NCBI RefSeq assembly: GCF_018873765.1
Contig: NC_057923.1
Coordinates: forward strand, 60,878,593 to 60,942,592
Direction of reading: 5' to 3'
Length of the DNA stretch: 64,000 nucleotides
From: Telopea speciosissima
Taxonomy: Eukaryota; Streptophyta; Magnoliopsida; Proteales; Proteaceae
Below are positions 1,120 to 51,439 of the stretch, piece after piece (the first letter of the stretch is position 1; each line of letters starts with the position of its first letter). Made by a program: the position numbers and the translations under genes. The notes under the pieces were generated by a model. It did no database searches, was not told the origin of the DNA, and was given only the letters and a program-made list of their open reading frames with translations.

Positions 1120-1233
1120 ACCCTCCACTCGACTGTGCAGTGTGTGTGTGTGTAAGTTGATAAATATTGTCCTATTGCTGCCATCAATAAGTCTCAGGAA
1201 TAACGTGATTTGGTTCATGATACCATGCAGGTC

Positions 1234-21377: not shown

Positions 21378-24300
21378 TTATGCTAATAAGGAACCTTCCA
21401 TGACAGTAACAGCTTTGCCTCGAATCAGTACTCTCTGGTTTGTCTCATCTAAATGCAATTCCAGTACTCCACCCCTTGGAGATGCCTAATCCATATAATT
21501 TGTGTTATTGAGAAATCTCATGCATGTGTTTGTGTCTGTGATAGAAAGAGAGGAGAGTTAAAGAGGATACCATGTATGCAACAAGATCACATTTTCCCAG
21601 CTTTTTACTCCAATAGGTCACTAAAGCACAATGTACGCTTCCACAAACAGGATCCTGCAAGATAAATGGAAGCCATTTCCAATGAGCCAGACCAATTAAG
21701 GATACTAACAGTCTAAAATTCTGTTCAAAAAATTATTCTTCTCACTTTATAATCTTTTGAACAATCATCATGGTCCAATAATGGAGTTTATTTGCACATA
21801 ATAGAATCAAACCACGTAAAAACTATTTCACTGCAGAAACCACATTGTTTTTGTACAGCAACTATTGCAAACAAGAGTTAATTTCTTTACTCCAAGTCAG
21901 TCTCTACTACCTAACTTCTAGAAAAACAATCAATAGACAATCAGAAAACAAGAGAGCTTTGGAACTATTAAAAAAAACCCAAAAGAGGAAAAGAAAAGAT
22001 GGAAGATGCTTGCAATGTTCCACAACGATATAACTAAAAATCTTCATTAGTTTGGTACAACATTCACGCCAACAACTAGATGTATAGATAATATCCATTA
22101 AGAGATCATGTCCAAATTTAAGTTGCCCAAGTACCAATTACTATATGGAAACAGGATACAGATTTACTAAAGTCCAAGATATTATGCCACTTAACATAGC
22201 GACAGTTTATATAAATGATAAACACCAAGAATTGAAAATTTTCTTCCAAAACAAAAAGATACGTCAAACGAAGTATAACTAGCATCTAGCACAAGAATCC
22301 TCAGTAATTAGTCACTGTGACAAAGCACAAGTATATGTAGCAAGCACAAGAAAAACAAAATCATTACATGATTGACACCCATAGGTGCAAGTTTTTGTGA
22401 TTTCATTACGATTGAAAGTTAAAAAGGAAAAGAAAAGTGAAAGGAATAAATTTATTCCATTAACTAATTAAATGATAAAGCGTGGCTCAATCTTTCACAT
22501 TTACTTCTACAACATAAGTTTCTAAGTATTAATAATAATGAGAGTGACTAGTTGTCTGTAAATATTAGTTACATTTCAAAAAGGAAATTACTGTCAACAA
22601 GGCCGTTACAATACGTATTCATAAATGAAAGATAAATAAATAAACCAAGTCCATTTTATGTTCATAAGTAACAAAGAAGTTACCTCATTAATTCCCATCT
22701 TTGGACTAAAAAAGCGACTGAAGAAATCAAATCCAGATCCGTCAGGAGCAGGCCCTGTAACAATGAGCCCTCTAGCAGGACATTTTCGTATCTCATCCAA
22801 TTGTGGTTTTAAATCTGCAACAGTCTTTCCGGATGAGAGCTCGACCTAAGAAAATGCAACCAAGTAACCTCTTTCAGTACAAATGCCAAAAATTTCTATA
22901 TTGGAGCTACAAAAAAGGCATCCGCCTAGCTTCCAACAAACATGTGGTGCCTGGAGTGGGTAAACAACACATATTCTTATCCAATGGTACAACCTGGGAT
23001 AGTCAGTGTCAAATTACATGCAATGCTACAAGCATTAAGCAAGAAACAGGAGACGAACTAGGATTAAGAAAAGCAGAGGCTTCCAACTCTATCAATTATT
23101 GAAATGAAAGTCGTTAAGTTGTCCCCAAGTTAAAGCACACTAAAAACGTGTTACTACACTTGTTACCTGGATGCTGCTTCTAGCATACTGATTCAAACCT
23201 ACACAAATGAAGCACCCTAATATATCCATAATCAAGTGTCATTATAAATGAATGGGATAAAACAAGTACATAGAGGTCACCACCACCGGCTTCAGCTGTT
23301 TTACTTATATTGACCATAGGAGCGCCATTCAGGGTTTCTGGAAGTGATGGAATATCTGCAGATTCACACTCGAGCACAGGAATTGTAGGGAAGTCTAATT
23401 CTATAGAGAAGTGCTCTTCTGGGTCGCCATCTGAGAACTTTGACGCGTCCACATTGCTTGCTGTAGGAATCCTTTTAGCAATCAGAACTCCAGATAGTGT
23501 GACAAACTCAATAACATCTGTTCTTGCTATCCTGTATGCAAAGAGAAAATGTGCAGATGCCAAGGTTCCATGACCGCAAAGCTTGACCTATAGATAAAAA
23601 TGAAAACGAATTATGTGGAAATTTATTTACCAACAGGTGCGAAAGCAATTGACCTATCGACAACTAGCCAATGTATGAAATTTAGCAGAACCCATTGGTA
23701 CTATACGATGGTAACTAGTGACCATGAGCACGGTAGGAAGGGGAATCATCATTCAATTAGTTCCAATTTGTATATGGTACACCAAAGGTCCAAAACGCTT
23801 CTCTCTGGGTTGACTGTTCCTCGGTGCTACCTTCAGCATCATGAACTATGGGAAGGCAACTTTGCAGGGGATGTTCCACTAGAAATATTGATGTAGTTCA
23901 AGAGAACAATAACGGAAGCAGCAAACCAGGCCATCAAACTGGACCAAGAATAGGCTATTACGTGTAATTTTGAGTGTCCAATGGGTTGTATGGGCCATGG
24001 GCTTTATATTTTTGGGTTTATTTTTGTAATGGGACAATTCTATAAGCCCAAATATTAGGGATTTAAGTCCCATGCGGGGTTAAGTAGTTATTTTCTGTTT
24101 CTTAGTCATTAAGTGGTGGACAATGGCTGACACTAAGAGGGGAGTGTATTAGTGTATTTAAAATTTTCCCTTTTTATCTGACTGGCTCAACTCAAACTTG
24201 CAGCCCACTTCTGGCATTGATAATAATCAGACATACAGTCCTGTGTACACCCATCCTACAGACAAAAGCACTTCCAATATACACACATGCACAGCCACAA

Positions 24301-26667
24301 GAAGCACACCCTTCCTGCAGACAAAAGCACTTTCAATATACACACATGCACAACCACAAGAAGCACAACCACAACACAAGATTTTTAGGTTACAGCCTCT
24401 TTGCGAAAGCAGGGGTAAGGCTGCGAACATTATGACCCTCCCCAGACCCCACAATGGCGGGAGCCTCGTGCACTGGGTATGCCTTTTTTTTTATAGATTT
24501 TGAGTTTCTATTTCCTTGTAAGTTTTATTTAGTTGCTATTTTGCTATACTCTCCATTAGCCAAGGGGAATTTCTATTTTGTAACAAGGCAATTTATAAAC
24601 ATAGGAGGAGGTAATTCCTAGCCTTCAACGACTTTGACAGCCATTGAACGTGTGGTTTGTGCATGTGCGTGAGTATGAGAAACACCCATGCTGTGAGAGA
24701 CAGCAAACCTTGGTGACATTCCGAGGTGGAGATTGGTGAGAGGCCATCTCCTAGTTGGTGGGAGATCAACATATCCCTTTCTTTCTTTCTTCTTCCACTG
24801 GTAAGCTGTTCTACTGTTATTTACTATTAGTTTCCTTATTTCTAATCTCACTTCTCACCTTGTTTCTACCGAGCGACATCACCTGTTTGAATCCCATACT
24901 TCCATTCCATTGACTTGCGCATGGCGCTACAAGGTTAGAGGCCTTACTTGCTGTTTTTCAGCCACCGTTTCCGATTTTGTAAGTTCTATTTCTCTGCTTT
25001 CTAATCTGGTGCAGGACTCCTTTTGTGATTTCTGTAACTGTTATTGATTGAGACCAATAATCTCCGTTTATACGCTGTTTCCTAACTTTCTAAATCAAGT
25101 CACTCCTCCAGACTGGAACATCCAAAGGTCTCCGTTGAACATGGACGTGCCACCTCAAACAACATTCTCATAGTTTATCATGTATCAGAGCTACACCCAA
25201 CTCAGCTCTAATGGATCCCACTCTAATAGCTCCGCATAAATCAACTACATACCAGGTGGGCTTTAAGGTTAATTGGAACAGTTCCTTTCTAGTATAGTAG
25301 GAAGGCCTATGGCAGTTAGTCGGTTAGTCCTATCACATGAATGTGCCCAATGCATAACATGGTATTGTTTTTCTACCATGAGAGATTTCATGAATTTACC
25401 AAACAAACCAGAATCGTACCAACTAATAGAGAAGCTACCTTCAATATTAAAAATGCAACAAAAAAAAAACAATGTAGTTCTTCATAACTCAATTAAGAGA
25501 AGTAATAAAAAAAATTTCTTAAATTACACGGCCAATAAACCATGAGATTTTATTCTGCACTACTCAACTCTCTGCTGGAAGGTAATAATGGTGGCCAACT
25601 ACTAGATACTACAGCTTCCTAGATCTAATTTACAACAGTAATCACTTACATGAGAATCAACCAAAAGGCTATAAAGAAGTGATAAATCGAAAAGAATAAA
25701 ATTACTAGTACAATCCTCCAACACTCTCCCCCCACCCCCACCCACACCCACACCCACACCCACACCCACACCCAAAAAAAGTGTGGAGCCTTCTATAGTC
25801 CTGGAGTAGGAACAACAGCCACACATAGCAACACTTTAAATAAATAAAAAAAAACACAAACCCCTTGAGTCATGAATCATGACTCAACCATAAGAACCCA
25901 CTACCTTCCCATACATTACTATATTATATATATGTAAATTATATGTAGAAGAAAAAATTTAAACTTCCACTTAAACAAAAAACAAAAGAAAGTGGGCCAG
26001 CTTAAAACCAACTGAGAAATTAAAATTTAGAAATAAATCAAATAAAATAAACAAGTTTTAAATAAACTTTAATTAAACAGAAAAAAAAAATAGAATTCAA
26101 GAACACCGAAATTTCAGATTCTCAGGGTTTCAGTGAGTACATTTCCAGGAAAAGGTAAATTGTGTTTCTCTTCGAAATCGTAAAAACAGATAATATGGAG
26201 AATCTAAAGTTTGGAATCACTACACTAAAAATTGAATGCAAATTTTTTTTTTATTCTCCCGGGGCAGAGTGAGTGGGGATATAGAGATGAACAGAGGTGA
26301 TAGATGGTAGAAGAACATCAAAACGAACCTCAACTAAAGGAGTAAACCAGCGGAGGTGGAATCGCGTGACAGAATGGTCATTAGCATCCGATTGGGTAGA
26401 GGAAATCGGAGTCAAGAAACAAGTTTCGGAAATGTTGAATTCCGCGGCAACAGCTTGCATCCATTTCTCATCTTGCTCTTCTTCTTTCTCCAACAAACAC
26501 ACTGCCGCTGGGTTTCCCTTAAACGCCGTGTCAGTGAACGCGTCCACCTGCTCGAGTCATCCCAGCTTCATCTTAAAACCACAAAATCTCAAAGCGCACA
26601 GACCATAAGAATCCAAAGGAAAAGACAGAGAAATTACCACAGAGTACTTCACGGGACGCTTCACCAT
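21378..26667 (-). CDS. PhzF-like isomerase/epimerase-fold protein, copy A (six exons)
   Basis: Exons (minus strand): 26638-26667, 26329-26547, 23270-23587, 22684-22845, 21571-21654, 21378-21485. Every exon is a multiple of three and every intron has GT-AG borders, giving 306 codons plus TAA, a normal family length. The product starts MVKRPVKYSV then VDAFTDTAFKGNPAAVCLL and ends VTVMEGSLLA. It belongs to the PhzC/PhzF family with the diaminopimelate-epimerase fold; plant members are of uncertain substrate. Residues matching bacterial PhzF catalysis are all present: Glu51 in NISETCFL, His89 in LCGHGT, Asp244 and Ser249 in DPVCGS. The donor of intron 2 (GTTCGT) is weak but kept in all three copies. 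This is the copy most likely to be catalytic. Confidence 0.93.
24245..24370. repeat. Two-unit tandem repeat of 59 bp in intron 2 of copy A
   Basis: The unit from CAGACAAAAGCACTT through GAAGCACACC occurs twice, and again at the matching place in unit B (about 37420-37530). It predates the A/B duplication and is absent from copy C. Confidence 0.7.
24392..24492 (+). mobile_element. 5'-truncated Au SINE (unit A)
   Basis: The run GCGAAAGCAGGGGTAAGGC, then GACCCTCCCCAGACCCC and GCCTCGTGCACTGGGTATGC with a T-run, is the 3' body of the Au SINE family found across flowering plants. The tRNA-derived head is missing. The same insertion is at 37553 in unit B, so it is older than that duplication. Confidence 0.85.
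25083..25250 (-). mobile_element. RTE-type LINE 3' fragment (unit A, deleted)
   Basis: On the minus strand the reading resembles IRAELGVALIHDKL, then VHVQRRPLDVPVWRSDL, the C-terminal region of plant RTE reverse transcriptases. Compared with unit B, about 380 bp including the 3' tail is deleted here. Confidence 0.7.
25728..25777. repeat. CCCACA minisatellite in intron 2 of copy A
   Basis: Tandem CCCACA/CCACCC units follow a C-rich run. Unit B lacks this stretch. Confidence 0.8.
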
Positions 26668-27319
26668 TTTTTCGGAGAGAGAGAGAGAGAGAAAACCGAT
26701 GAGGAGACCAGAAAGATTCTTCCTGCGCGAGTTTTTTTTTTCCGTGTATTTTATTTGTGAGCCTGTGAGGAGTGTTGGAGTGATGTAACCTTCTTCCCAA
26801 GTCCTCACCTGAAACATGGAATGCTCGTGAATCGTGAATCTTGAATCGTGACTCGTGACTAGTGACACGACAAACGACACGCATTGCTGAGCTGTAATGT
26901 CGTCCTAGCATAGTATAATAAAGAAAACTATGAGCCTATCACATTCGTATATGGTACATGCATGGATGATAATGATGTCAACTTGGATCATTGATTTAGT
27001 AAAATCCGATACCGATTCGGATCGGTGCTATGGCCGATAGGATAGTGACACGAGGTATTAAGATTATAAAATAATTTTCAAAAAATTAATAAAAATTGGT
27101 AGCAGATCAATAGTGTAGTCGCATGCACCAACCAATGAGAGCACGCACGATAGCACAATGGAGGTGGAATGGGTAATCTGACTGTTTTGAATTAGTTCTG
27201 ATCCCGAGGGGCCAATCCTAAAACTGTCTCATTTATTAAACGGTTCTAAAATTAGGATACAATCCTTTTTAATAATGAGAAATGTTCAATTCTAGCTCTT
27301 AAGCGATTCTTAAGAGCTA

Positions 27320-27690
27320 TGTGTTGCAGAGATGAGGATGTTAAGATGGATGTACGGCAAAACTAAGAAGGATAAAATGAAGAACAGATGTATTAGAGAT
27401 TTAGAGCTGATGTGGGAGTTGCCCTGATCAGTGACAAACTTCAAGAATGTCGTCTAAGATGTTTTGGCCATGTACAAAGGAGGCCTGAGGAGTGGGGACG
27501 CCCCAATAAGGAGGCGTGATCTAATTTCAATTGAAGGAGCTAAAAGAGTTAGATACAGGCCAAAATGACCATAAGTGAGGTTGTGAAGAATGACATGCAC
27601 AGTTAGGGTCTTGTGCCAAGTAAGACCTCAGATAGAGCTTATTGGAGAGTAAGAATCCCCATTGTAGACACCCATGTAGCCATTAATCGA
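27320..27690 (+). mobile_element. RTE-type LINE reverse-transcriptase C-terminal fragment
   Basis: The translated phrase RWMYGKTKKDKMKNRCIRDL, then FGHVQRRP-like and RVRYRPK-like blocks, matches the end of plant RTE reverse transcriptases. Several stops and frameshifts are present. The 3' part from 27564 is repeated at 43289. Confidence 0.75.
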
Positions 27691-28213
27691 TTCCAAAATC
27701 AGATCCCAAAACCATCTGAATTCGGAATTTTAATTGACACCCTTGAGTAAAATGTAACGTTTCCCACCTAATGTTTGTTTGGTTGGGTTGGTGATGGAGA
27801 TGATGGCAATGGAAATGAGAACATGAATATGAACACGATTGTCCGCAAGCAACTGTGAGATGTTCGAAGTATTCATACCAATTGCAAGAACAATACAATC
27901 AGGAAAGGATCTCCAGAACAATAGTAAAGAAGAAGATCTCCGGAAACTCCCTCTGAAAATCTATTGAACTAGCAAACTAGTCTTCAAATGCACAGCTACT
28001 TAAGGGAACAAAAGAAACTGAAAACATAGTTTTAAAATTACAAAATACAGGTACAATTTACAAAACATACTTTTAAAAAGAACTCCAAGGAAGAGGGAGA
28101 TATTTCCTAAGCTAGGAAAATAGGAAACCTTCCATTACAACAACAGCTTTGCCTCGAATCAGTACTCTTTGGTTTGCCTCATCTAAATGCAAGTCCAGTA
28201 CTCCACCCCTTGG
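27564..28213. repeat. 650-bp duplication, partner 43289-43938
   Basis: The two segments are almost identical and of equal length. The partner is the sequence just downstream of, and within, the last exon of PhzF-like copy C. The match stops abruptly at both ends, marking recombination or insertion breakpoints. Confidence 0.9.
28112..28213 (-). pseudogene. PhzF-like last-exon fragment (copy D)
   Basis: On the minus strand this reads the end of the PhzF-like protein (GVLDLHLDE-like, then VVVMEGFLFS and TAG), closest to copy C. The remainder of the gene is missing because the match is cut at 28213 next to an LTR. It is a remnant of an additional tandem copy. Confidence 0.85.
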
Positions 28214-31155: not shown

Positions 31156-34100
31156 CTATGCTAATAAGGAACCTTCCATGACAATAACAGCTTTGCCTCG
31201 AATCAGTACTCTCTGGTTTGTCTCATCTAAATGCAATTCCAGTACTCCACCCCTTGGAGATGCCTAATCCATATAATTTGTGTTATTGAGAAATCTTATG
31301 ATAGAAAGAGAGGAGAGTTAAAGAAGATACCATGTATGCAACAAAATCACATTTTCCCAGCTTTTTGCTCCAATAGGGCACTAAAGCACAGTGTATGCTT
31401 CCACAAACAGGATCCTGCAAGATAAATGGAAGTTTTTGTGATTTCATTACGATTGAAAGTTATAAAGGAAAAGAAAAGTGAAAGGAATAAATTTATTCCA
31501 TTAACTAATTAAATGATAAAGCGTGGCTCAATCGTTCACATTTACTTCTACAACATAAGTTTCTAAGTATTAATAATAATAATGAGAGTGACTAGTTGTC
31601 TGTAAATATTAGTTACATTTCAAAAAGAAAATTACTGTCAACAAGAATACATATTCATAAATGAAAGATAAATAAATAAACCGAGTCCATTTTATGTTCA
31701 TAAGTAACAAAGAAGTTACCTCATTAAGTCCCGTCTTTGGACTAAAAAAGCGACTGAAGAAATCAAATCCAGATCCGTCGGGAGCAGGCCCTGTAACAAT
31801 GAGCCCTCTAGCAGGACATTTCCGTATCTCATCCAATTGTGGTTTTAAATCAGCATTGACCTTTCCAGATGAGAGCTCGACCTAAGAAAATGCAACCAAG
31901 TTCCCTCTTTCAGTACAAATGCCAAAAATTTCTATAATTGGAGCTAAAAAAAAGGCATCCGCCTAGCTTCCAACAAACATGTGGTGCCTGAAGTGGGTAA
32001 ACAACACTTATTCTTATCCAATGGTACAACCTGGGATAGCCAGTGTCAAATTACATGCAATGCTACAAGCATTAAGCAAGAAACAGGAGATGAACTAGGA
32101 TTAAGAATAGCAGAGGCTTCCAACTCTATCAATTATTGAAATGAAAGTCGTTAAGTTGTCACCAAGTTAAAGCCCACTAAAAACATGTTACTACAGTTGT
32201 TACCTGCATGCTCCTTCTAGCATACTGATTCAAACCTACACAAATGAAGTACCCTAAAATATCCATAATCAAGTGTCATTATAAATGAATGGGATAAAAT
32301 AAGTACATAGATGTCACCACCACCGGCTTCAGCTGTTTTACTTATATTGACCACAGGAGCGCCATTCAGGGTTTCAGGAAGTGATGGAATATCTACAGAT
32401 TCACACTCGAGCACAGGAAACGCAGGGAAGTCTAATTCTATAGAGAAGTGCTCCTCTGGGTCGCCATCTGAGAACTTTGACGCGTCCACATTGTTGCTTC
32501 CTGTAGGAATCCTTTTAGCAATCAGAATTCCAGATAGTGTGACGAACTCGATAACATCTGTTCTTGCTATCCTGTATGCAAAGAGAAAATGTGCAGATGC
32601 CAAGGTTCCATGACCGCAAAGCTTGACCTGTAGATAAAAATGAAAACGAATTATGTGGGAATGTATTTACCAACAAGTGCGAAAACAATTGACATATTGA
32701 CAACTAGCCAATGTATGAAATTTAGCAGAACCCATTGGTACTATACAATGGTAACTAGTGAACATGAGCACATTTTGTATATGGTGAATGAAAGGTCCAA
32801 AACGCTTCTCTCTGGGTTGACTGTTCCTCGGTGCTACCTTCAGCGTCATGAACTATGGGAAGGCAACTTTGCAGGGGATGTTCCACTAGAAATATTGATA
32901 TAGTTCAAGAGAACAAGAACGGAAGCAGCAAACCAGGCCATCGAACTGGACCAAAAATAGGCTATTATGTGTAATTTTGAGTGTCCAGTGGGTTGTATGG
33001 GCCATGGGCTTTATAGTTTTGGGTTTACTTTTGTAATGGGACAATTTTATAAGCCCAAATATTAGGGATTTAAAACCCATGCGGGGTTAAGTAGTTATTT
33101 TCTGTTTCTTAGTCATTAAGTGTTGGACAATGGCTGACACTGAGAAGGGGGGTAATGTAGTCCTAGATAGGTAGGAGACCTAATAGGAGCTAGTTCAACC
33201 AGGATCTAATCTGAACAGGTCATCCGAATGGGAGAAACTTGAGTTTTAGGTCAAAATTAGGGTTAAAGTTAGGTTTAGGTTAGAGTTGCCTTATATAGTA
33301 ATGATGGGCAGGTGTAGGGAAGTCTAATGGTATAGGTTTTATGATGTTTGAGTGAATGCAAGTAGGTTAGGTGAGTTGGGCAGCAAGATAAGGTTATTTG
33401 AGACAATTCCTAATGGAGGTAGGAGAAGGGGATTCTAAGGTTTAGAGATATGATTTGGTTACTAATTTCAGAATTATCATGTCATGAAATCAACTACTTA
33501 TTCTGAGCATGAAATCAGAATCGAGTATGGTTGAAGGTCTGAAACTGTGTTTTAATGGAGGTAGGGGTAGAATGGGAAATATGAGAATATATTCAAATCA
33601 GGCCACAGGAATTAGGTCAAATTTGAATCACTTCCCAAATTAGGGTTAATAGAGGTATGGTGAAAATATGAGTTTAATCGGATGGCTGGTTTGGTAGATC
33701 TCAAAAATCACCTTGTATGTGACCTTCTAGAAGGAAGAAGAATAGTTGCAGAATTTCTTACTTGTTGCAGGTCTTCAATGGTAGCAGCTTTGAAGATGAA
33801 CAATGGGGTGTCCCGATCTTCACGGTACAAGGAGATAAGTAGCAGCCCTCTCGATCTTCACGATGCAAGGAGTCGATTGGAGATCCACCAATCCCTTCAA
33901 CCTTGATATTACTCACAAGGCACACTCACAATGGAGCAAAGGCAGCAACAAAGGCAGCAAGCATAAAGCTAATTTTTATTAATCAAATTCGTATTCAATG
34001 CTGGCCTCCCTTACAAACTTATATAGAAGACTCAAAAATAGACTTAGACACTAAAAAGGATTGGCCTAATCCAATCCTTAACCTATAAGCTAACTTAAAC

Positions 34101-37100
34101 TGACTAGGAAACTAAAATAGACTCAAAATAGAGTCCTAATAACTTAAAAACAACTTAAACTACTTAAAATAAAGAAGATTCCCTAGCAGCCAATAGGATA
34201 TAAGAACCTCTTAGCCAATAGGATCACTTCACTTAAATTAGACCAATTGAACCAATTGGATGCAACCAATTTAAACCGGTTCAATTAAAAACACACAATA
34301 AAAACTTAGTATTGGGCTAATCCCGTATGCAACCTATGTACCCCTAATTTAGGCCCAGAAAAGTGGCCTATTACATTAGAAACTCATGGGATCAAAGGCC
34401 CAACAGGTATGTAACCCAACCCTAGACTTATTTCTAATGAAACAAGCCCTATTTGGTGATGAATCTGCATCAACTCTCCCCAACTTGAAAAAATTCGTCC
34501 TCGAATTTTGTAGTGATGAGGGGGAATCAACATGTGATCAATAGCTTTGACCATCCCCAAACAGAATTTCGATGAAGCAGGAACATTAGGAATATAGTCT
34601 TCAAGGCGTGGAGCTTTCTCTTCGAAGAACCATGGTGGCATAACAAACTCTATGTGCTCTACCTCTGAATCAGCACCAACTGTGAATGCCCTATCCATAG
34701 AGTCTTTAGTGTTAGCAACCTTCTCATCTAATACTTGAGATACAAGCTCCACCTCTACAAGAACAACATCTTGAATATCATTGATCTCCTGTGGAATATT
34801 CTCAACCACCTCTTCATCTTCTGCTGTTTCAGCTTTGTCTACTTTGACTTCTTCAAGGTAGACCTCTTCAGTAGAATCTTCCGCATGTTGACTTTCCATC
34901 TTTGAAGCTCCAGGCATTGTCTCTTTGTTTTCATCACAATTCACTGTGATCACTTCAGCTTTGTCTTCAACTTGTGCTCTCTCAATTTTCGTTGGCAATG
35001 TACATTTGTATTCAGCCGCTGATTTAACACTGGTGATGTCAGATTTTCAACACTCTTCAACTTGCAAACGGAATCTCATTGATGGAGGCTTCAAGTTGTC
35101 TTCAGATTTGAAGGCTTTTTGGTGGTGATGTTGTCGATGGGAATTTAAGTTACCTTGTTGTAGAGCTCTGAACGTCCGTGGGAAATATTTCTTACTCAGA
35201 TCTTCTTTCATCTCTGCCCATGTAATAGGTTCTCTATCACGGTAGTCAGGATAATCCATCTGGGTTCTCCACCAATTATGTGTTGGTCCCACTAGCTTGG
35301 TATGTGCTAGTCTCATTTTCCTATGCTCAAGCAAATCATACCAATTAAAATAATCATCTAAAGCAGCTAACCAGTCACAAAATACCTGTGGATTTGGTTT
35401 GCCATCATAGTCTCTCAACTCATACCCCTCTGGAGGTCTATGGCGTCTCCTGTAATCTCTGTATCCTCTGTTCCTATCTTCACTATGATCTCTGTCATGC
35501 CTACGTCGATCCCTGTAATCTCTGTCTTCTCTGTATTGATCTGTCCTTGGGGCTCTTTGTGCTACTGAATTGACTTGATATTTGTCCTTTTCTAGGGGAA
35601 TGTTGTTGCTCCTTACTGGAGTAGTTTGGTGTTGCTCAATTCACTGCAATGTTTCACTTATAGCCCTTTGACTAGCATGAATCTGCTGAAGCTTCTCCAG
35701 AATTTTGTTCAAAGAGTCGATGGAGACAGAGGTAATGGGCTGGCCATGCTCATCCATGGCTTTGATACCACTTAATGTAGTCCTAGATAGGTAGGAGACC
35801 TACTAGGAGCTAGTTCAACCAGGATCTAATCTGAACAGGTCATCCGAATGGGTGAAACTTGAGTTTTAGGTCAAAATTAGGGTTAAAGTTAGGTTTAGGT
35901 TAGAGTTGTCTTATATAGTAATGATGGGCAGGTGTAGGGAAGTCTAATGGTATAGGTTTTATGATGTTTGAGTGAATGGAAGTAGGTTAGGTGAGTTGGG
36001 CAGCAAGATAAGGTTATTTAAGACAATTCCTAATGGAGGTAGGAGAAGGGGATTCTAGGGTTTAGAGATATGATTTGGTTACTAATTTCAGAATTATCAT
36101 GTCATGAAATCAACTACTTATTCTAAGCATGAAATCAGAATCGAGTATGGTTGAAGGTCTGAAACTGTGTTTTATTGGAGGTAGGGGCAGAATGGGAAAT
36201 ATGAGAATATATTCAAATCAGGCCACAGGAATTAGGTCAAATTTGAATCGCTTCCCAAATTAGGGTTAATAGACGTATGGTGAAAATCTGAGTTCAATCG
36301 GATGGCTGGTTTGGTAGATCTCAAAAATCACCTTGTATGTGACCTTCTAGAAGGAAGAAGAATAGTTGCAGAATTTCTTACTTGTTGTTGGTCTTCAATA
36401 GTAGCAGCTTTGAAGATGAACAATGGGGTCTCCCGATCTTCACGATGCAAGGAGTCGATTGGAGATCCACCAATCCCTTCAACCTTGATATTACTCACAA
36501 GGCACACTCACGATGGAGCAAAGGCAGCAACAGAGGCAGCAAGCATAAAACTAATTTTTATTAATCAAATTCGTATTCAATGCTGGCCTCCCTTACAAAC
36601 TTATATAGAAGACTCAAAAATAGACTTAGACACTAAAAAGGAATGGCCTAACCCAATCCTTAACCTATTAGCTAACTTAAACTGACTAGGAAACTGAAAT
36701 AGACTCAAAATAAAGTCCTAATGACTTAAAAACAACTTAAACTACTTAAAATAAAGAAGATTCCCTAGTAGCCAATAGGATATAAGAACCTCTTAGCCAA
36801 TAGGATCACTTCACTTAAATTAGACCAATTGAACCAATTGGATGCAACCAATTTAAACCGGTTCAATTAAAAACACACAATAAAAACTAAGTATTGGGCT
36901 AATCCCGTATACAACCTATGTACCCCTAATTTAGGCCCAGAAAAGTGGCCTATTACATTAGAAACTCATGGGATCAAAGGCCCAACATGTATGTAACCCA
37001 ACCCTAGACTTATTTCTAATGAAACAAGCCCTATTTGGTGATGAATCTGCATCAACTCTCCCCAACTTGAAAAAATTCGTCTTCGAATTTTGTAGTGATG

Positions 37101-40100
37101 AGGGGGAATCAACATGTGATCAGCAGCTTTGAGTGTCCAGTGGGTTGTATGGGCCATGGGCTTTATATTTTTGGGTTTACTTTTGTAATGGGACAATTTT
37201 ATAAGCCCAAATATTAGGGATTTAAAACCCATGCGGGGTTAAGTAGTTATTTTCTGTTTCTTAGTCATTAAGTGTTGGACAATGGCTGACACTGAGAAGG
37301 GGGGGGGTGTATCAGTGTATTTAAAATTTTCTCTTTCTATTTGACTGGCTCAACTCAAATTTGCAACCCACTGCTGGCATTGATAATAATCAGACATACA
37401 GTCCTGTGTACACCCATCCTACAGACAAAAGCACTTCCAATATACACACATGCACAGCCACAAGAAGCACACCCTTCTTGCAGACAAAAGCACTTTCAAT
37501 ATACACACATGCACAACCACAAGAAGCACACCCACAACACAAGATTTTTAGGTTACAGCATATTTGAGAAAGCAGGGGTAAGGCTGCGAACATTATGACC
37601 CTCCCCAGACCCCACAATGGTGGAAGCCTCGTGCACTGGGTATGCGTTTTTTTTTTATAGATTTTGAGTTTCTATTTGCTTGTAAGTTTTATTTAGTTGT
37701 TATTTTGCTATACTCTCCATTAGCCAAGGGGAATTTCTATTTTGTAACAAGGCAATTTATAGACATAGGAGGTAGTAATTCCTAGCCTTCAACGATTTTG
37801 ACAGCCATTGAATGTGTGGTTTGTGCATATGTGTGAGTATGAGAAACACCCATGCTGTGAGAGACAGCAAACCTTGGTGACATTCCAAAGTGGAGATTGG
37901 TGAGAGGCCATCTCCTAGTTGGTGGGAGATCATATCCCTTTCTTTCTTTCTTCTTCCACTGGTAAGCTGTTCTACTTTTATTTACTATTAGTTTCCTTAT
38001 TTCTAATCTCACTGCTCACCTTGTTTCTATCGAACGACATCATGAGCTGTTTGAATCCCATATTTCCATTCCATTGACTTGCGCATGGCGCTACAGGGTT
38101 AGAGGACCTTACTTGCTGTTTTTCAGCCACCGTTTCCGATTTTGTAAGTTCTATTTCTCTGCTTTCTAATCTGGTGCAGGACTCCTTTTGTGATTTCTGT
38201 AACTGTTATTGATTGAGACCAATAATCTCCGTTTATATGCTGTTTCCTAACTTTCTAATTCTGGTTTTAGATGTGTTCTCCATCCAATTAAGTACACTCG
38301 ACTAGAGTTATATCTTCATCAGACTGATCTGTTGTAGTCTCCCTCCGGTCCTAGTAATTGGTTTCTTGGTCATTATTAATGGTTTGGTGATTAGGAACCC
38401 AAGAATACTCTTGTTGTTGCTTTGACTCAATCCCCCAAAAGTGGATCTCACACTAATACAACAACAACAATGCCTTATTCCAATTAAATGGGGTCAGCTA
38501 CATGGATCCTTGCCCTCCACTCAACTCTATTCGAAATTATATGTGGTATAAGGCCTAGGCTATGCATGTCTTTCGTCACCACCTCTTCTAGGGTTATTTT
38601 AGGTCTATTCCTTACTCTTTTAGCTTTATCAATCTGAATCAAGTCACTCCTCCAGACTGGAGCATCCAAAGGTCTACATTGAACATGACCGTGTCACCTC
38701 AAACAACATTCTCATAGTTTATCATGTATCGGAGCTACACCCAACTCAAATCTAATGGATCCCAGTACTCTAATAGCTCCGCATAAATCAACTACATACC
38801 AGGTGGGTTTTAAGGTTAATTGGAACAGTTCCTTTCTAGTATAGTAGGAATGCCTATGGCAGTTAGTTGGTTAGTCCTATCACATGAATGTGCCCAATGC
38901 ATAACATGGTATTGTTTGTCTACCTCTACCATGAGAGATTTCATGAATTTACCCAACAAACCAGAATCGTACCAACTAATAGAGAATCTGCCTTCATTAT
39001 TAAAAATGCACCAAAAAAAAAAAAAAAAAATGTAGTTCTTCATAACTCAATTAAGAAAAGTAATAAAAAAAATTCTTAAATTACACGGCCAATAAACCAT
39101 GAGATTTTATTCTGCACTACTCAACTCTCTGCTGGAAGGTAATAATAAAAACACAAACCCCTTGAGTCATGCATCATGACTCAACCATAAGAACCCAATA
39201 CCTTCCCATACATTATTATATTATATATATGTAAATTATATGTAGAAGAAAAAACTTAAACTTCCACTTAAAAGAAAAAACAAAAGAAAGTGGGCCAGCT
39301 TAAAACCAACTGAGAAATTAAAATTTAGAGGGAAATTTTCACGGACACCCCTTAAAAGTATTCAATATCTCAGAAACTTACCATACTTAATCAAAATGTC
39401 ACAGACACCCCCTATTTTTATGAATTTATTTCAATTTAGTCCACTCCGTTAGTCTCTGCAGTTAAGTGTCTGTTAACTCTTTTTAAATGGCAAAATTACC
39501 CTTACCACAGTGAAATCCCTGTAATACCCTTACTGATGAATTAATGATGTTAGAAGTTAATTTTTAGAAAAAGACAATTTTGCCCTTGTTTTTATTCAAT
39601 ACTTTTTTGTTATTCCTTTTATCTCTCCTTCTTCTTCTCCTTCTTCTCCTTCTGCTCTTGCTTTCTTCCACTGCCGCCACCACCACTGCCACCGCCAACC
39701 CCTCTAGCCCTCCTTCTCTTGCTCCCTTGCAACCCCTCCACCACCCTCTCCAGTCTCCTCCGCCCGAGCATGCTCTCAGCAATCCAACCCCATAAAAACC
39801 CTAACTCTGCAAATTAAAACCCTAACCCACCAACGTATGGCGTAGTCCAAAAAAGTCTTATGCTATATGAAACAGAAAAAGGAAACAAACACAGAATACT
39901 CTGCCTATCTGCCATTGCCATCTGCCAGATGAAAACGAAAGCAAAGGTTGCAGATTGGCGATAGACGGAGAGGAACACAAACAGAATTTACCAATTTCAT
40001 CACAACAAAAGGAAAACATAGAAAGAGTGGAGACTAGACTGTAGAATACATATAGAGCAAATACTTTTTTCGGCCATTTCCTAATTTTTCTTGCTCCACC

Positions 40101-40333
40101 CACTAGAAACTTTGTTCTGTTCTTCCCATTGGCAAGAATTCAAAATTTAAAAATAAAAAATGAATAAGTGGAGAGAGAGAGAATTTTTTTCATCATATTT
40201 TGATTTTTAATACTATATTTGAATGAAAAACACCGACTAAACAAGTAGTAATTTTGTAGAAAATTGCAACGAATCAAATTGATAAAAATAGGGGAAGTAA
40301 TCCTCATCGGAAATGCTCTTGTGGGAAAATGTC

Positions 40334-40401
<68 letters not shown>

Positions 40402-41725
40402 CTAGCCCTCTCGAGGGCTCCAAGGCACCTACTGAAGCCGAATAGGAGGAGTTTTTGCAATTCCGCTCCAAGTTCCTAACGGCGGCAGTGGGCGTGGCGT
40501 TATAGTGTGAAGAAATTAAACGCAGCGGGACAACTAAGCAGGTGATCTGATGAAGCCGAATCCCGCAGAAACAAAGGATTGTGTCGCATGTCGCGTTGGG
40601 CTGTGGAATATAGATGTTCCGACTAAGAAGCGACATTTGCAGCGAATTCACACACTTCTGCCCATCCGATGACGACGCTGGAGTTGGTGCCAGAACCTGC
40701 AATGCAAACTTAGCATGTGTTGTAAACAGCCACGCCATTAGAACGAGACAGCAACGGCTACTGTCAAGAGACTCCCTCTGCAAATGGGGCAGCTGCATGC
40801 GTTGATTCCATGGTCGCCGTAGCCGGAGCAAGTGATGGTCGCCGGAGCCACATCCATAGAGGGAAGAAGATGAAATGACAGTTTTGTCCTTTTATTTAAA
40901 TAACTAAGGGGTAAAATGGATATTTCACCTTTGGGTACTAATTGTGCTTAACGTTTGGGGTGTCTGTGACATTTTGACCAAGTATGGTAAGTTTCTGAGA
41001 TATTGGATACTTTTAGGGGGTGTCCGTGAAATTTTTCCGAATTTAAAAATAAATCAAATAAAATAAACAAGTTTTAACTAAACTTTAACTACACAGGAAA
41101 AGAAAGAAAGCAAGAAAAAAAAAACAAAGAATTCAGGAACACGGAAACGTCAGATTTGGTTTTCAGGGTTTCAGTGAGTACATTTCCATGAAAAGCAAAA
41201 TTGTGTTTCTCTTAGAAATCGTAAAAACAGATAATATGGAGAATCTAAAGTTTGGAATCACTACACTAAAAATTGAATGTAACTTTTTTTTTTTTTTTTT
41301 TTTCCTCCTCTTCTACAGGGGCAGAGTGAGTGGGGGTATAGAGATGAAGAGAGGTGATAGATTGTAGAAGAACATCAAAACGAACCTCAATTAAAGGAGT
41401 AAACCAGCGGAGGTGGAATCGCGTGACAGAACGGTCATTAGCATCCGATTGGGTAGAGGAAATCGGAGTCAAGAAACAAGTTTGCGAAATGTTGAATTCC
41501 CTGGCCACAGCTTGCATCCATTTCTCATCTTGCTCTTCTTCTTTTTCCAACAAACACACTGCCGCTGGGTTTCCCTTAAACGCCGTGTCAGTGAATGCAT
41601 CCACCTGCTCGAGTCATCCCACCTTCATCTTAAAACCACAAAATCTCATAGCGCACATACCATAAGAATCAAAAGGAAAAAAAGAGAGAAATTACCACAA
41701 AGTACTTCACGGGACGCTTCACCAT
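31156..41725 (-). CDS. PhzF-like protein, copy B, catalytic Glu replaced by Gln (six exons)
   Basis: Exons (minus strand): 41696-41725, 41386-41604, 32307-32627, 31720-31881, 31331-31414, 31156-31263. All are in phase, with GT-AG introns, giving 307 codons plus TAG. The start is MVKRPVKYFV and the end MEGSLLA. Against copy A it has one extra Asn codon in exon 3 and several substitutions. The key one is NISQTCFL: Gln51 (CAA) where the family has the catalytic Glu. His89 and Asp245 in DPVCGS remain. In bacterial PhzF that Glu is the acid/base of the isomerisation, so activity is probably lost or changed. Intron 2 is 8.8 kb and holds two mobile elements. No stop is seen in any exon. Confidence 0.9.
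32976..33153. repeat. 178-bp direct repeat flanking the LTR element, left copy
   Basis: The host segment from TTTGAGTGTCCAGTGGG to GAGAAGGGG also follows the right LTR at 37128-37307. Unit A has it once (about 23967-24150). An ordinary LTR insertion duplicates only about 5 bp. Confidence 0.85.
33156..37122 (-). mobile_element. Gag-only LTR retrotransposon (TR-GAG-like), 4.0 kb
   Basis: Two LTRs, 33156-34540 and 35776-37122, are nearly identical; the left has an extra 46-bp local duplication near 33825. Reading on the minus strand, the 5' LTR is followed by a primer-binding site at 35758-35770 (TGGTATCAAAGCC, one mismatch to the initiator-Met tRNA 3' end). The interior is only 1.2 kb and holds a gag-like frame but no protease, reverse transcriptase or integrase. 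Movement would need enzymes from another element. It lies in intron 2 of copy B and is absent from unit A. Confidence 0.9.
34384..35757 (-). pseudogene. Gag-like protein of the LTR element, two stops
   Basis: The frame opens at ATG 35757, directly beside the primer-binding site (MDEHGQPITSVSIDSLNKI). It passes a TGA after ISETLQ, a basic Arg/Asp-rich stretch, then a retrotransposon gag core (VFCDWLAALDDYFNWYDL, then EMKEDLSKKYFP). A second TGA follows QVEEC. The same frame then continues as a Glu-rich tail and ends just inside the 3' LTR. The core is typical of plant gypsy gag. Two stops make this copy non-coding as it stands. Confidence 0.8.
37128..37307. repeat. 178-bp direct repeat flanking the LTR element, right copy
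   Basis: Partner of 32976-33153. The unit B host sequence resumes after it, collinear with unit A (GTGTATCAGTGTATT). Confidence 0.85.
37553..37656 (+). mobile_element. 5'-truncated Au SINE (unit B)
   Basis: Same insertion as at 24392, with the Au SINE phrases GACCCTCCCCAGACCCC and CCTCGTGCACTGGGTATGCG before a T-run. Confidence 0.85.
38455..38790 (-). mobile_element. RTE-type LINE 3' end with TTG-repeat tail (unit B)
   Basis: On the minus strand it reads VPVWRSDL-like, RVRNRPKITLEEVVTKDM, then EWRARIHVADPI, the conserved end of plant RTE reverse transcriptases. It closes with the short TTG-repeat tail typical of RTE elements. It is 5' truncated and frameshifted. Confidence 0.8.
40336..40398. 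repeat. Compound GT-GA microsatellite
   Basis: A GT run of about 15 units passes directly into a GA run of about 15 units inside the Pack-MULE. It produces meaningless Ser/Leu and Thr/His frames on the minus strand. Confidence 0.95.
40402..40850 (-). pseudogene. Captured fragment of a plant GPI-anchored-protein gene
   Basis: The minus strand reads CVNSLQMSLLSRNIYIPQPN, ATCDTILCFCGIRLHQIT, then NATPTAAVRNLERNC, and in a shifted frame GFSRCLGALERA. The Cys-rich order resembles the uncharacterised GPI-anchored protein family typified by Arabidopsis At4g28100; this is recalled, not searched. Indels break the frame at least twice. Neither signal peptide nor GPI end is visible. It sits wholly inside MULE ends, so it is best read as a host sequence picked up by the transposon. 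Confidence 0.65.
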
Positions 41726-41830
41726 TTTTTCGGGGAGAGAGAGAGAGAGAACCAAAGAGGAAATGGGATCAAAAATTTTTCCGCCTCACCGGTGTTGGAG
41801 TGATGTAACCTTCTTCCAAGTCCTCACATG

Positions 41831-42160: not shown

Positions 42161-43281
42161 ATGGGTGCAAGATTCACAAGCAACAGGGGAAAGTAAATCA
42201 GGAAAAGAAAAAAACAAAAACACAAACAAAATAAAATGTTCTACTTTAAATCTTGTAGGAACAGATATGGGGCCTTAGCTTGCAAATGATCAAGATTCCT
42301 TTTCACCCATGGTTGGGTATCATGCAATTAATGCAATAATCCAATGGCTATATTTAAAGTTATATATGAAAGATCTTAGTTGGATTAGGACTGTTCTAGA
42401 ACCAAGAATTGATAGCAGAATATGGATTGATCTCAGAAATCAGAACAACATACAAAAGTAAATAGATTAAAAACAGCAGTAAGGAAACTTAGATTTAATA
42501 TCATTAAACAAGAAGCAGAAGCAAGAGTTGGATCATCCCACACGGTGTGTGACACACACACTCACACACTTAAGCCAATAACCTCCAAACTCAATCACAA
42601 ACCGTAAAGTTCCTCATGGATCACAAAGAAAATAAAAAAAAAAAAATGCTGTAAATGACATTACAAACAGCCAAGGTCCTCATGGATCACAATTCAGGAA
42701 AATCACAAATCTTCACAACATCAGAAACCCACCTTAAAAAAGAAAAAAGATTTCAAAAAAATACCTTACACGAATCTACCGTTGCAATCGCCGGCGGCCG
42801 GCCTGAAGAACAGAAGAACCACGGTCACGGGTCGTCAGAAGTAGAAGGGACGGAGAAGAATGGAGAAGGAACCAGCCGCGGGAACTCGTTTTATCTCTGG
42901 TTTCCGCGAAGAATAATCCGGAAGAAAGTACGAGGATTTGATAATAGTGTAATAAATTAGATTAGAAAGCTTACCAAAAAAAATAATAAAAAATTAGATT
43001 TGAAAGAGGAAACAGAGTTGCCACTGTGGGTCAGGTATGTACGGACTAAACCGAAAAAATATTATTATTGGGGTGATCGATGTTTGGGTAGGATTGCAAG
43101 TGTTCTTGGTCGTCCGAGTTGCACCGATAGGAAGACGGTTCCATGGGTAAGTGGCTGTCTTTTGCACGCATTTGCATCTCCATCAAAGCCGCTGACAGGC
43201 TTCCTGCTTCTATTTTTATCGCTTAGGAAGATGGCACACTGGTTGAACAACCAGTACAGTGGTACACTATGACGTACTGGT
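42161..43281. repeat. Segmental duplication, right copy (partner 1-1119)
   Basis: See 1-1119. It ends where the duplicated copy C downstream segment begins (43289), so two duplication blocks meet here. Confidence 0.9.
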
Positions 43282-43288
43282 CCCTTCC

Positions 43289-43938
43289 AATGACCATAAG
43301 TGAGGTTGTGAAGAATGACATGCACAGTTAGGGTCTTGTGCCAAGTAAGACCTCAGATAGAGCTTATTGGAGAGTAAGAATCCCCATTGTAGACACCCAT
43401 GTAGCCATTAATCGATTCCAAAATCAGATCCCAAAACCATCTGAATTCGGAATTTTAATTGACACCCTTGAGTAAAATGTAACGTTTCCCACCTAATGTT
43501 TGTTTGGTTGGGTTGGTGATGGAGATGATGGCAATGGAAATGAGAATATGAATATGAACACGATTGTCCGCAAGCAACTGTGAGATGTTCGAAGTATTCA
43601 TACCAATTGCAAGAACAATACAATCAGGAAAGGATCTCCAGAACAATAGTAAAGAAGAAGATCTCCGGAAACTCCCTTTGAAAATCTATTGAACTAGCAA
43701 ACTAGTCTTCAAATGTACAGCTACTTAAGGGAACAAAAGAAACTGAAAACATAGTTTTAAAATTACAAAATACAGGTACAATTTACAAAACATACTTTTA
43801 AAAAGAACTCCAAGGAAGAGGGAGATATTTCCTAAGCTAGGAAAATAGGAAACCTTCCATTACAACAACAGCTTTGCCTCGAATCAGTACTCTTTGGTTT
43901 GCCTCATCTAAATGCAAGTCCAGTACTCCACCCCTTGG
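43289..43938. repeat. 650-bp duplication, partner 27564-28213
   Basis: It includes the 3' scrap of an RTE LINE and most of the last exon of copy C. Copy C is the intact counterpart of the truncated copy D. Confidence 0.9.
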
Positions 43939-46900
43939 AGATGCCTAATCCAAAGAAAATGTATTATTGTTCCAGAAATCTCAAGTATGTGTTTGTGTGA
44001 AAAAACAAAAAAAAGAGAGAGAGTGAAGTAGTGAAAGAGGAATACCATGTATGCAACAAGATCGCATTTTCCCAGTTTTTTGCTCCAATAAGGCACCAAG
44101 GCACAGTGTGCACTTCCACAAACAGGATCCTGGAAGATAAATGGAAGTCATTTCAGATGAGCCAGACCCATTAAAGATACTAAGAGTCTAAAATTATGTT
44201 CAAAAAATCATTCTTCTTTACTCTAGAATCTTTTGAACAATCATTATGGTCCAGCAATGGAGTTTATTTGCAAATTAGGTGCAAGTTACAAAAAATATCT
44301 AATGGTTTTCTATTTGGGTTGAAAGTATATTTGCTCATAAAAGAGAAAAAAAAAAAAAAAAAACAGAGATGCAAACTTTGCAACATAGGGAGCAACCTGA
44401 AATAGCGAATCCATTTGTATTTCAATCAATGTGGAGAAAATTTGCAGAACTTGTAACATAAATCCTAATTACTAGAGACATGAAGATGTTGCCTAAACTC
44501 TCCTTTACTCATGTGAGGAAAAAAAATGTAGTTCGCCATACAGCAAAATGGAAGTCACATTTTGGCAGTTTCGTCGGAATAGTCAAAATTTTGACAATTG
44601 AAATTTGGAAAACAAGTCAATTACACTGCTGCCTATACATTGGGTGGGCTTCAAAATTTGAAATGCAGCCAATCTAGAGGGTTCTCGATAAACTGAATAG
44701 CCACATCAAATTTCAACTTGGCAAAAATCACAGTTGTCCACCAGGCTGCTCACCAAAGGCCGTTCCAAATACCTTTACCCATACATATACAAATATGCCC
44801 CCTGTTTATATTAGATATGTCATATATGTATTGGATATCAAAACTTTGTATCCATGTCCCTGCTATGTAGCTCCATTTAAATTAAGCACTAATACAACTG
44901 TTGACTAATTTGGTATCAAGATTTCAAAATGTTTGGTTCCTCACCCAGACTCTCTAAAAGCTTTCTATTTTTTCAGATGGTCTTAGGTCCCCACCCCTCT
45001 CCCTTCAATCACTGCATATGATAAATAATAGAATCAAACCATGTGAGAACAATTTGCTTCAAAACATATTGTTATTGTACAACTACTATTGCAAACAAGA
45101 GAGGATTTCTTTACACCAAGTCAGTCTCTACTATCTAAATTATAGAAAAACAACCAAGACAATCAGAGGACAGGAAAGCATTAGAACTAAAAAAAAAAAA
45201 AACTTGGAGAAGAAAAGATGAAAGATGCTTGCAATGTTCAACAACAATATTAAAAATGTTCGTAAGTTTGATACAACATTCATGCCAACAACTAGATGTA
45301 TAGATCATATCCAACAAAGATATTATGGCACTTAAAATAGTGATAGTATGCATCCATATGACATGGTTACTACATAAAAAGAAATGACAAAACACTCAAG
45401 AGTTGAGATACATTCTTTCAAAACAAAAGGATACAGTCAAACAAAGAGTAAAAAGGAAAAGATAAGTGCAAGGAATCATTCTAATCCATTAACATAATTA
45501 AATGATAAAGTTTGGCGCACTCTTTCACATTTACTTCTACAACATAAGTTGTTGCTGTTTTGACCAAGTATTTCTCATAAAGAGAGTGACTAATTGTTTG
45601 TAAAAACTAGTTACCTCATTAATTCCAAACTTTGGACAAAAAAAGCGACTGAAGAAATCAAATCCAGATCCGTCGGGAGCAGGCCCTGTAATAATGAGCC
45701 CTCTTCCAGGACATTTTCGTATCTCATCAAATAATGGTTGTAAATCTGCAACAGTCTTTCCAGATGAGAGCTCGACCTAAGAAAATGCAACCAAGTTTCC
45801 TTTTTGAGTACAAATGTCAAAAATTCCTGTACTTGAACTAAAAAGAAGGCAACCACTTAGCTTCCAACAAACAGGTGGTGCCGGAGTGGGTAAACATTTT
45901 TTCTTATCCACAATGATACAACATAATAACATAGGACAGCCATAATTTCAAAATACATGCAATGCTACTAGCATTCCTTTGATAAACAAGAAACATGACA
46001 TGGCCTAGGATTAAGAAAAGCAGAGGCTTCCAACTCTATCAATTCTTTAAATGAAAGTATCCAAGTTGTCGCCAAGTTAAAGCCCACCAAAAATGGGTTA
46101 TTATAGTTGTTTCATGGATACTGATTCAAACCTACACAAATGATGCAACCTATTATATCCATAATCAAGTGTCATTATATATGAATGGGATAAAATAATT
46201 ACAATGAGGTCATTGCTGGCTGTTTTACTTATATTGACCGCGGGAGCACCATTCAGGGTTTTAGGAAGTGATGGAATATCGGCAGATCCACACTCGAGCA
46301 CAGGAACTGTAGGGAAGTCTAACTCTATAGAGCAGTGATCTTCTAGTTCGCCATCTGAGAACTTTGATGCATCCAAGTTTCTTACTGTAGGAACCCTTTT
46401 AGCAATCAGAACTCCAGATAGTGTGACAAACTCGATAACATTAGTTCTTGCTAGCTTGGATGCATAGAGAACATGTGCAGCTGCCAAGGTTCCATTCCCA
46501 CAAAGCTTGAGCTATAGATAAAAATGAAAAATCAATTATGTGGGATTTTATTCATCAAAAGATGCAAAAAAACAACTGATCTATTGATAACTAGCCAATG
46601 TATGAAATTTAACAGAACCCATTGGTACTATACAATGGTAACTAGTGAATGGGGCATGGTAGAGATGGAATCATCATTCAATGAGTAACAATTGGTATAT
46701 GGGTTAGCAAAGGCCCCAAGTGGGTTATTGAAACCATCCTACCTTCTCTCTCTCTCAAAAAGCAAAGCTCCAAGCAATGGTAGGTGATAATGGTGGCCAA
46801 ATACTAGATATTACAACAGCAATCACTTAACATAAGTATCAGCCAAAAGACTGAAAAGAAGAGGAAAACTCATAAAACCCCCACGGTCTGAGTTATGACT

Positions 46901-47568
46901 CGATCAACCATACTATGTAGAAGACCTACTCTAAACCCATCTGTAATTCTTGAATAAAAGCTTAACAGCTCAAACTTCCACTTAACCTTGTCATTCGACC
47001 TAGAAAAAAAATCAAAATCAAGAATACCGAAACCTCCAACTCTCAGAACTACAGTGAGTACATTTCCAGGAAAACCAAAATCGACTTTTCTCTTCGAAAT
47101 CCTCTACAGGGCATCTCAAGTTTTGTATCACTACAATAAATTGAATGTAAATTTTTTTTTCTCCAGGGCCAGAGTGATCGATGATGGAAGAAAATAAAAC
47201 GAACCTCGTTCATAAGAGAAAACCAACGGAGATGGAACCGCTGGACAGAATGGCCATTCGACTGATCATTAATGTCCGACTGGGTAGACGAAATCGGAGT
47301 CAAGAAACACGTTACGGAAATGTTGAATTCCATGGCAACAGCTTGCATCCACTTCACATCTACCTCTGCTTCTTCTTCTTCCAATAAACACACCGCCGCG
47401 GGGTTTCCCTTAAACGCTGTATCAGTGAACGTGTCCACCTGTTTGGGTCATGCTTCATCTTAAAAACAAAATCTCAAAGCGTACCAAGAACAAGCATCAA
47501 AGAGCACAGAGTAAGAGAGAGAGAGAGAGAGAGACTACCACAGAGTACTTCAATGGACTCTTCACCAT
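43837..47568 (-). CDS. PhzF-like protein, copy C, two catalytic residues replaced (six exons)
   Basis: Exons (minus strand): 47539-47568, 47205-47438, 46203-46511, 45615-45776, 44046-44129, 43837-43944. All are in phase with GT-AG introns, giving 308 codons plus TAG. The start is MVKSPLKYSV then VDTFTDTAFKGNPAAVCLL; the end is VVVMEGFLFS. It is the most diverged copy: exon 2 is five codons longer and exon 3 three shorter than in A. The catalytic Glu is Val52 (NISVTCFL, codon GTA) and the conserved His is Asn94 (LCGNGT, codon AAT). Asp246 and Ser in DPVCGS are kept. Normal PhzF chemistry is unlikely, yet the frame is open. Intron 2 is only 0.7 kb, without the insertions seen in A and B. Confidence 0.9.
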
Positions 47569-51430: not shown

Positions 51431-51439
51431 ATTTTTTTG

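Follow-up and report, generated by a model that had tools for sequence, protein, structure and literature searches.

Different residues at the catalytic glutamate position among tandem PhzF-like genes of Telopea speciosissima

Results

The DNA analyzed here (the window) is a stretch of 64,000 nucleotides from the 823-Mb genome of Telopea speciosissima (G000:C8:60878593-60942592, contig NC_057923.1), and it carries three PhzF-like genes, A, B, and C, all on the reverse strand. Gene A (26667..21378) has its six exons at 26667-26638, 26547-26329, 23587-23270, 22845-22684, 21654-21571, and 21485-21378; gene B (41725..31156) at 41725-41696, 41604-41386, 32627-32307, 31881-31720, 31414-31331, and 31263-31156; and gene C (47568..43837) at 47568-47539, 47438-47205, 46511-46203, 45776-45615, 44129-44046, and 43944-43837. 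Position 21378 is the stop end of A, and position 47568 is the start of C. A sequence-only reading of this DNA had described three six-exon genes that splice cleanly to 306 to 308 codons, as we also find: the products are 306, 307, and 308 amino acids long for A, B, and C, all 15 introns are bounded by GT..AG, there are no internal stops, and the exon lengths of the three genes differ only by multiples of 3. When A, B, and C were run against the Pfam profile PF02567, each matched its full length (1-281 of 281), with scores of 270, 258, and 244 bits, respectively, against a curated cut-off of 27 bits.

The second intron ranges in length from 0.69 kb in C and 2.74 kb in A to 8.76 kb in B (32628..41385, reverse strand), where it is enlarged by inserted repeats. 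The insert at 32976-37304 contains a pair of direct repeats, each about 1.4 kb long (97%), with a weak gag-like frame between them (35050-35640, slightly below the Pfam cut-off). It is flanked by a 177-bp direct repeat (99.4%), and A has a single copy of that 177-bp sequence. Elsewhere in the window, a partial copy of C at 27564..28213 (reverse strand) comprises 102 of the 108 bases of exon 6 (28112-28213, 100% identical) plus downstream DNA; it is 99.5% identical to 43289-43938 and is probably the scar of a tandem duplication. A copy of the intergenic DNA between C and B (42161-43289) occupies 1..1127, also on the reverse strand, at 97.9% identity. It sits upstream of a further gene, B2, whose first exon begins 435 bases to the left of the window.

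The three genes are part of a larger cluster. We searched the host genome both by family and by protein; among the best-scored candidates, PhzF-like exons occur only at about 60.770-60.926 Mb of this contig (C8) and on the unplaced contigs C44 and C298. Exon mapping, for which we fetched the C8 array, C298, and C44 from position 115001 onward, resolved a single array of nine six-exon genes over 156 kb of C8 (60770126-60926160), all on one strand in the order C, B, A, B2, A2, B3, F, G, H; the window holds three of the nine. The array holds every chromosome-placed PhzF-like gene found by these searches, and it also contains three scraps made up of the last exons of C. Five more genes with exon 2 (three A-type, two B-type) lie on the unplaced contigs, together with one B-type 3' part and two scraps; these may represent extra repeat units or the other haplotype. 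Repeat units containing A and B recur with a period of 40-43 kb and share long blocks that are 97-99% identical. Exon 2 is present in 14 copies, and in 8 of these (A, A2, A_298, B, C, F, G, and H) the assembled frame is unbroken. Among their best-scored candidates, neither the family nor the protein search of the host genome yielded a PhzF gene from elsewhere that could serve as an outgroup to the array. Searches with A in collections of genome contigs and viral contigs returned no plant relative, nor did a profile search of the viral contigs; the best 80 of at least 566 loci from the genome collection are all titled bacterial or archaeal.

The best solved-structure match to A is a PhzF family member, PDB 1s7j (E=1e-41, 45% identity over the aligned part), which shares with the plant genes the motifs NLSETAF, LRWFTP, LCGHATLA, and NEDPVCGS. 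It is a bacterial protein, presumably from Enterococcus faecalis, and has both the Glu and the His of the active site; we know of no function for it. The isomerase PhzF itself (trans-2,3-dihydro-3-hydroxyanthranilate isomerase; PDB 1u1v group, 1t6k, 5iwe) belongs to the same Pfam family and has the same four active-site positions as the plant genes, although A matches it at only E=3.5e-6. Residues Glu45, His74, Asp208, and Ser213 of PhzF were equated with positions 51, 89, 244, and 249 of the plant proteins through motif and spacing. According to the accessible text of two studies, Glu45, His74, and Asp208 are catalytically critical in PhzF (PMC4586147), and the bacterial variants E45A, E45Q, and E45D are inactive (PMC5524880).

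Gene A has Glu51, His89, Asp244, and Ser249 in place. At the position of the catalytic Glu, however, the window genes differ as had been reported from the sequence, with Glu51 in A (GAA, 26425..26427), Gln51 in B (CAA, 41482..41484), and Val52 in C (GTA, 47313..47315), all read on the reverse strand. The other assignments of that reading were likewise borne out: A and B have His89 where C has Asn94 (AAT, 46494..46496, reverse strand; the bacterial relatives have His), and the Asp and Ser of the DPVCGS motif are kept in all three genes. Across the nine C8 genes, codon 51 specifies Glu in A, A2, and H, Gln in B, B2, and B3, Val in C, Ala in F, and Asp in G, and the unplaced contigs add three Glu and two Gln. 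Every A-type copy (5/5) has Glu51, and every B-type copy with exon 2 (5/5) has Gln51. The codons are GAA, CAA, GTA, GCA, and GAC, the last four each one base away from GAA; all four changes are transversions, a pattern too weak to argue from. Asp and Ser are found in 8/8 intact-frame copies and His in 7/8, the exception being the Asn of C. B, C, F, and G each lack a residue essential in PhzF, one of the marks of a pseudoenzyme; B and C match PF02567 all the same, membership of which does not require the catalytic Glu. Glu45 is required in the PhzF of phenazine synthesis, whereas these four plant genes are without it, and the likeness does not imply a phenazine pathway in the plant. An incomplete B-type gene at C298:43060-44531 has Gln at the conserved His, amid several indels as assembled.

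A tree of the copies, which included the chimeric B_298, had the topology (C,((A,B),F),(G,H)), with bootstrap values of 99-100 on the main splits. The root is favored to lie between G+H and the remaining copies; Thr247 and Gln271 are kept in G and H and in 76/79 and 79/79, respectively, of the bacterial relatives retained from the best 80 of at least 566 loci. We take Glu as ancestral because it is found in 74 of these same 79 relatives and also in A and H. Together with the residues at codon 51, the tree then implies at least four independent changes (Gln, Val, Ala, and Asp). The two independent changes in open frames that had been proposed therefore stand as to independence and frame, with the number raised to at least four. 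The stepwise loss from A through B to C did not survive, since B is the sister of A and not an intermediate. B_298 (C298:12387-17640) is a broken chimera, whose exons 1 and 2 match B exactly and whose exons 3 to 6 are degenerate and mostly A-like, as from unequal crossing-over in intron 2. Its structure indicates that exon 2 is able to move between copies.

We next consider how conserved the catalytic column is. Two N-terminal motifs, which include neither the Glu nor the His, served to retrieve the bacterial loci, and one short-frame locus was dropped from the best 80 of at least 566, leaving 79. Within these 79, the Glu column reads Glu in 74, Val in 3, Asp in 1, and Ala in 1; His89, Pro80, and Asp244 are each present in 79/79 and Ser249 in 69/79. 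We defined 62 conserved columns as those conserved at 90% or more in this set, minus any at which A, B, and C all differ from the bacteria; with the threshold raised to 95%, the codon-51 column, at 94% Glu, no longer qualifies. C breaks four of these columns (Glu51, Thr79, Pro80, and His89) and B breaks one (Glu51). All losses in C lie in the N-terminal half, together with the Glu, and its C-terminal half still has the Asp and Ser. By eye, we counted 7 mismatches in 15 bases between C and A at 47205-47219, the end of exon 2 of C, where a local burst turns Thr-Pro-Leu-Val into Ser-Leu-Met-Asn beside the conserved TPxxE motif.

Over the six distinct copies (A, B, C, F, G, and H), 16 changes fall on the 62 columns, and codon 51 accounts for 4 of these (P=1.05e-4 for that column under equal rates; P no higher than 0.007 if any column is allowed). 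Tips F, G, and H, which lay outside the view of the sequence-only reading, alone place 2 of 8 changes there (P=0.0068). Codon-model site tests were not significant (M1a versus M2a, 2dlnL 5.59, p of about 0.06; FEL at codon 51, p=0.135); in M2a, codon 51 had a naive posterior of 0.855 and shared the top rank with codon 82. Codon 239 likewise has 4 changes, and an overdispersed count model predicts about 1.7 codons with at least 4 changes among 301, against 2 observed.

Measures of selection differ among the copies. Pairwise omega among A, B, and C is 0.38-0.40, and one-ratio estimates are 0.49 for three copies and 0.55 for six. On its own branch, A has an omega of 0.19 (below 1, p=0.008) and C an omega of 0.52 (omega=1 rejected, p=0.005). 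Own-branch values for B (0.67), F (1.22), G (0.73), and H (4.0) are not different from 1, and neither is the combined value for the B, F, and G tips (0.78, p=0.36). The four Glu-less tips and the rest of the tree do not differ significantly (0.63 versus 0.39, p=0.16). We also estimated the frame damage expected under neutrality, roughly, from intron indels, with the estimate for F based on one indel in 175 bp. By this measure C would have accumulated about 5 stops and about 19 frameshifts, G 1.5-1.8 and 3.5, B 1.3-1.5 and 1.6, and F 0.4-0.7 and 2.6; none of either was observed in any of them. The probability that G would be intact by neutral chance is 0.005-0.006, again a rough figure. The omega of C and its lack of the expected stops and frameshifts make it clear that this gene was maintained as a protein through most of its history. 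G was probably kept as well, judging from frame retention only. B and F are not distinguishable from decay. Coding and intron divergence are nearly equal for A-B (3.9% versus 4.3%) and G-H (5.0% versus 5.1%) and further apart for A-F (3.4% versus 4.6%) and A-H (5.9% versus 8.8%), and exon 3 carries a frameshift in B2 (-7) and in B3 (-1) as assembled. The suggestion that these genes are pseudoenzymes under constraint or in recent decay accordingly divides between copies, with C on the side of constraint, the B, F, and G tips having a combined omega indistinguishable from 1, and B2 and B3 being frameshifted as assembled.

Upstream DNA also differs among copies. A and F have about 500 bp upstream of the start codon in common (83%), with more beyond, and G and H share several upstream blocks, extending some 840 bp upstream in G. 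The likeness of B to A ends at about -110; there follows about 1.45 kb unrelated to the 0.75 kb of A at that place, after which array DNA resumes. Within the 2.5 kb compared, C resembles the other copies only to about -83. Given these changes, B and C may be expressed differently or not at all. As to assembly quality, the three copies on C44 have 6-7 indels of 1-2 bases in coding sequence (exon 3 accounts for 3-6), compared with 0-2 indels in 0.9-1.6 kb of their introns, and A_298 has none. We suspect that the C44 indels are consensus error, and a like doubt attaches to the frameshifts of B2 and B3. We considered whether A and B could be alleles or a false duplication and rejected this, as genes of the two types follow each other in turn along a single contig (B, A, B2, A2, B3).

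Proteins without the Glu also occur in bacteria. In the bacterial family around a Bacillus locus, L046, 20/43 genomes have a match at E of 1e-30 or less. In a set of 25 related sequences that includes L006 and L035, the Glu site is Val in 13 (L006, L035, and L112-L122), Ile in 7 (L124-L130), Glu in 4, and without data in 1 (L131). His is present in all 24 sequences that cover its site, and Asp and Ser in 25/25. The Val clade has a median omega of 0.24 (11 sequences; 39/55 pairs, those with pS<0.7). In the bacterial Val and Ile sequences, Ser50 is replaced by Pro, and Pro245 by Tyr, His, or Gln; the seven Ile sequences (L124-L130) read QPITTF at the catalytic Glu and have Tyr for the Pro in EDPVTGS. 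Three genomes of Bacillus relatives also encode a Glu-type relative (L132-L134). These clades, like the Glu-less plant copies other than C, keep His, Asp, and Ser, and they are conserved across species; the plant losses are several, differ from one another, lie within one array, and left positions 50 and 245 unchanged. Since the bacterial clades are conserved, loss of the Glu need not mean a dead gene. The sequence-only reading had tied its catalytic argument to this Glu not varying freely in active members of the family. The column is Glu in 74/79 of the nearest relatives (from the best 80 of at least 566), in keeping with that argument; the Val (13) and Ile (7) clades near L046, in which His, Asp, and Ser are kept, would tell against it in part if they are active.

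Two Arabidopsis genes, At4g02860 and At1g03210, are annotated plant members (PhzC/PhzF). Within the accessible text of the sources, root traits were recorded in T-DNA lines of an Arabidopsis PhzC/PhzF gene that by elimination is At4g02860 (PMC3764102), and At1g03210 stands in a table (PMC9965218). One lead, PMC4345802, was rejected; its accessible part concerns a zinc-finger gene. Our literature search found no work linking PhzF with pseudoenzymes and no study of the catalytic-Glu residue in plant PhzF-like proteins, and the accessible text of the papers it returned names no substrate for a plant PhzF-like protein.

Discussion

The results presented above led us to consider what became of the copies without Glu. 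The Glu51 copies (the A type and H) most likely keep the acid/base, isomerase-type chemistry of the family, in which the Glu ferries a proton between two substrate carbons, as is established for bacterial PhzF and presumed here. Four lineages independently departed from Glu by one-base changes of its codon, to Gln (B group), Val (C), Ala (F), and Asp (G). By analogy with the bacterial mutants, the resulting proteins are very probably incapable of the Glu-shuttle reaction, but they still have the Asp and Ser that belong to the substrate pocket, as well as, C excepted, the His. We propose that some of them, C foremost, were retained as proteins that would still fold and would bind a ligand or pair with active copies. 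That at least C is a retained Glu-less protein and not dead DNA is the reading we tentatively prefer, with a probability of roughly 0.45.

Its main rival, which we regard as a substantial possibility, is relaxed selection: with the function secured by A (and H), the redundant copies would be free to drift, and the Glu changes would mark an early phase of ordinary decay. The strong constraint on A itself (omega 0.19), the combined omega of B, F, and G (0.78, not below 1), the frameshifts of B2 and B3 as assembled, and the altered upstream DNA of B and C are all consistent with this, as is the closeness of coding to intron divergence in A-B and G-H, less so in A-F and A-H. Pure decay, however, is not expected to target one conserved column, and yet 4 of 16 changes fall on codon 51; nor does it sit well with the kept frame of C and its omega of 0.52 along a long branch, or with an intact G at a neutral chance of only about 0.005. 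A further alternative is that codon 51 is a tuning site, with Glu-less members still catalyzing altered chemistry, or acting on an altered substrate, through His, Asp, Ser, or water. We consider this unlikely. It draws on the bacterial Val (13) and Ile (7) sequences, conserved across species with His, Asp, and Ser; on the single occurrences of Ala and of Asp among the 79 nearest relatives from the best 80 of at least 566 loci; and on the top rank of codon 51 in M2a, joint with codon 82 (naive posterior 0.855). Against it, the bacterial sequences changed neighboring residues too (Ser50 and Pro245) and the plant copies did not, C is also without His and Pro80, both invariant in those 79 sequences, and the accessible text of the literature found reports no activity for any Glu-less member.

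An artefact, with A and B as alleles or assembly duplicates or with the changed codons as sequence errors, seems to us very improbable. The coding indels on C44 do resemble consensus error, and scraps of C persist at 99.5% identity. Yet the A- and B-type genes, interleaved along a single contig, differ in their introns and upstream DNA, the residue at codon 51 is uniform within each type (Gln in 5/5 B-type and Glu in 5/5 A-type copies), and F, G, and C are single, diverged copies.

Retention of C can be extended to a bolder proposal, which we hold to be doubtful: that selection repeatedly changed the catalytic-Glu codon itself, so that amplification yielded Glu-less folds (Gln, Val, Ala, and Asp) that bind ligands, poison dimers, or work independently of Glu beside a constrained, co-amplified Glu copy, in parallel to the bacterial Val and Ile clades. 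Pseudoenzymes are mostly known as single old events. Here, in one young array whose genes are alike in other respects, the proton-shuttle position is occupied by five different residues, and the array would serve as a natural test of how an enzyme family becomes something other than that enzyme. Because the array includes a constrained Glu copy, it permits a direct test of decay against reuse. The bacterial Glu-less clades, for their part, hint at a second, unstudied mode of the PhzF family. Judging from the accessible text of PMC5524880, the Gln, Ala, and Asp of the array are the same mutants that were made in the laboratory for bacterial PhzF.

Other features of the window

Pieces of a leucine-rich-repeat receptor kinase gene lie at 53816-55921 and 56068-56712 on the forward strand (LRR_14, 3.5e-41; Pkinase, 3.7e-33). 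On the reverse strand, DDE_Tnp_4 transposase fragments and a Myb/SANT-like domain are found at 6105-6788 and 5360-5617 (DDE, 3.7e-11 and 5.1e-4, the latter below the cut-off; Myb/SANT-like, 4.7e-10), a combination that we take to be of the PIF/Harbinger transposon type. An RVT_3 (reverse-transcriptase-like) frame runs along the forward strand at 16922-17605 (1.2e-12), and a GRF zinc finger is encoded on the reverse strand at 4004-4345 (1.2e-7). The receptor-kinase gene is flanked by a pair of direct repeats, 51429-52557 and 62701-63763, that align in pieces of 967 and 155 bp at about 83% identity.
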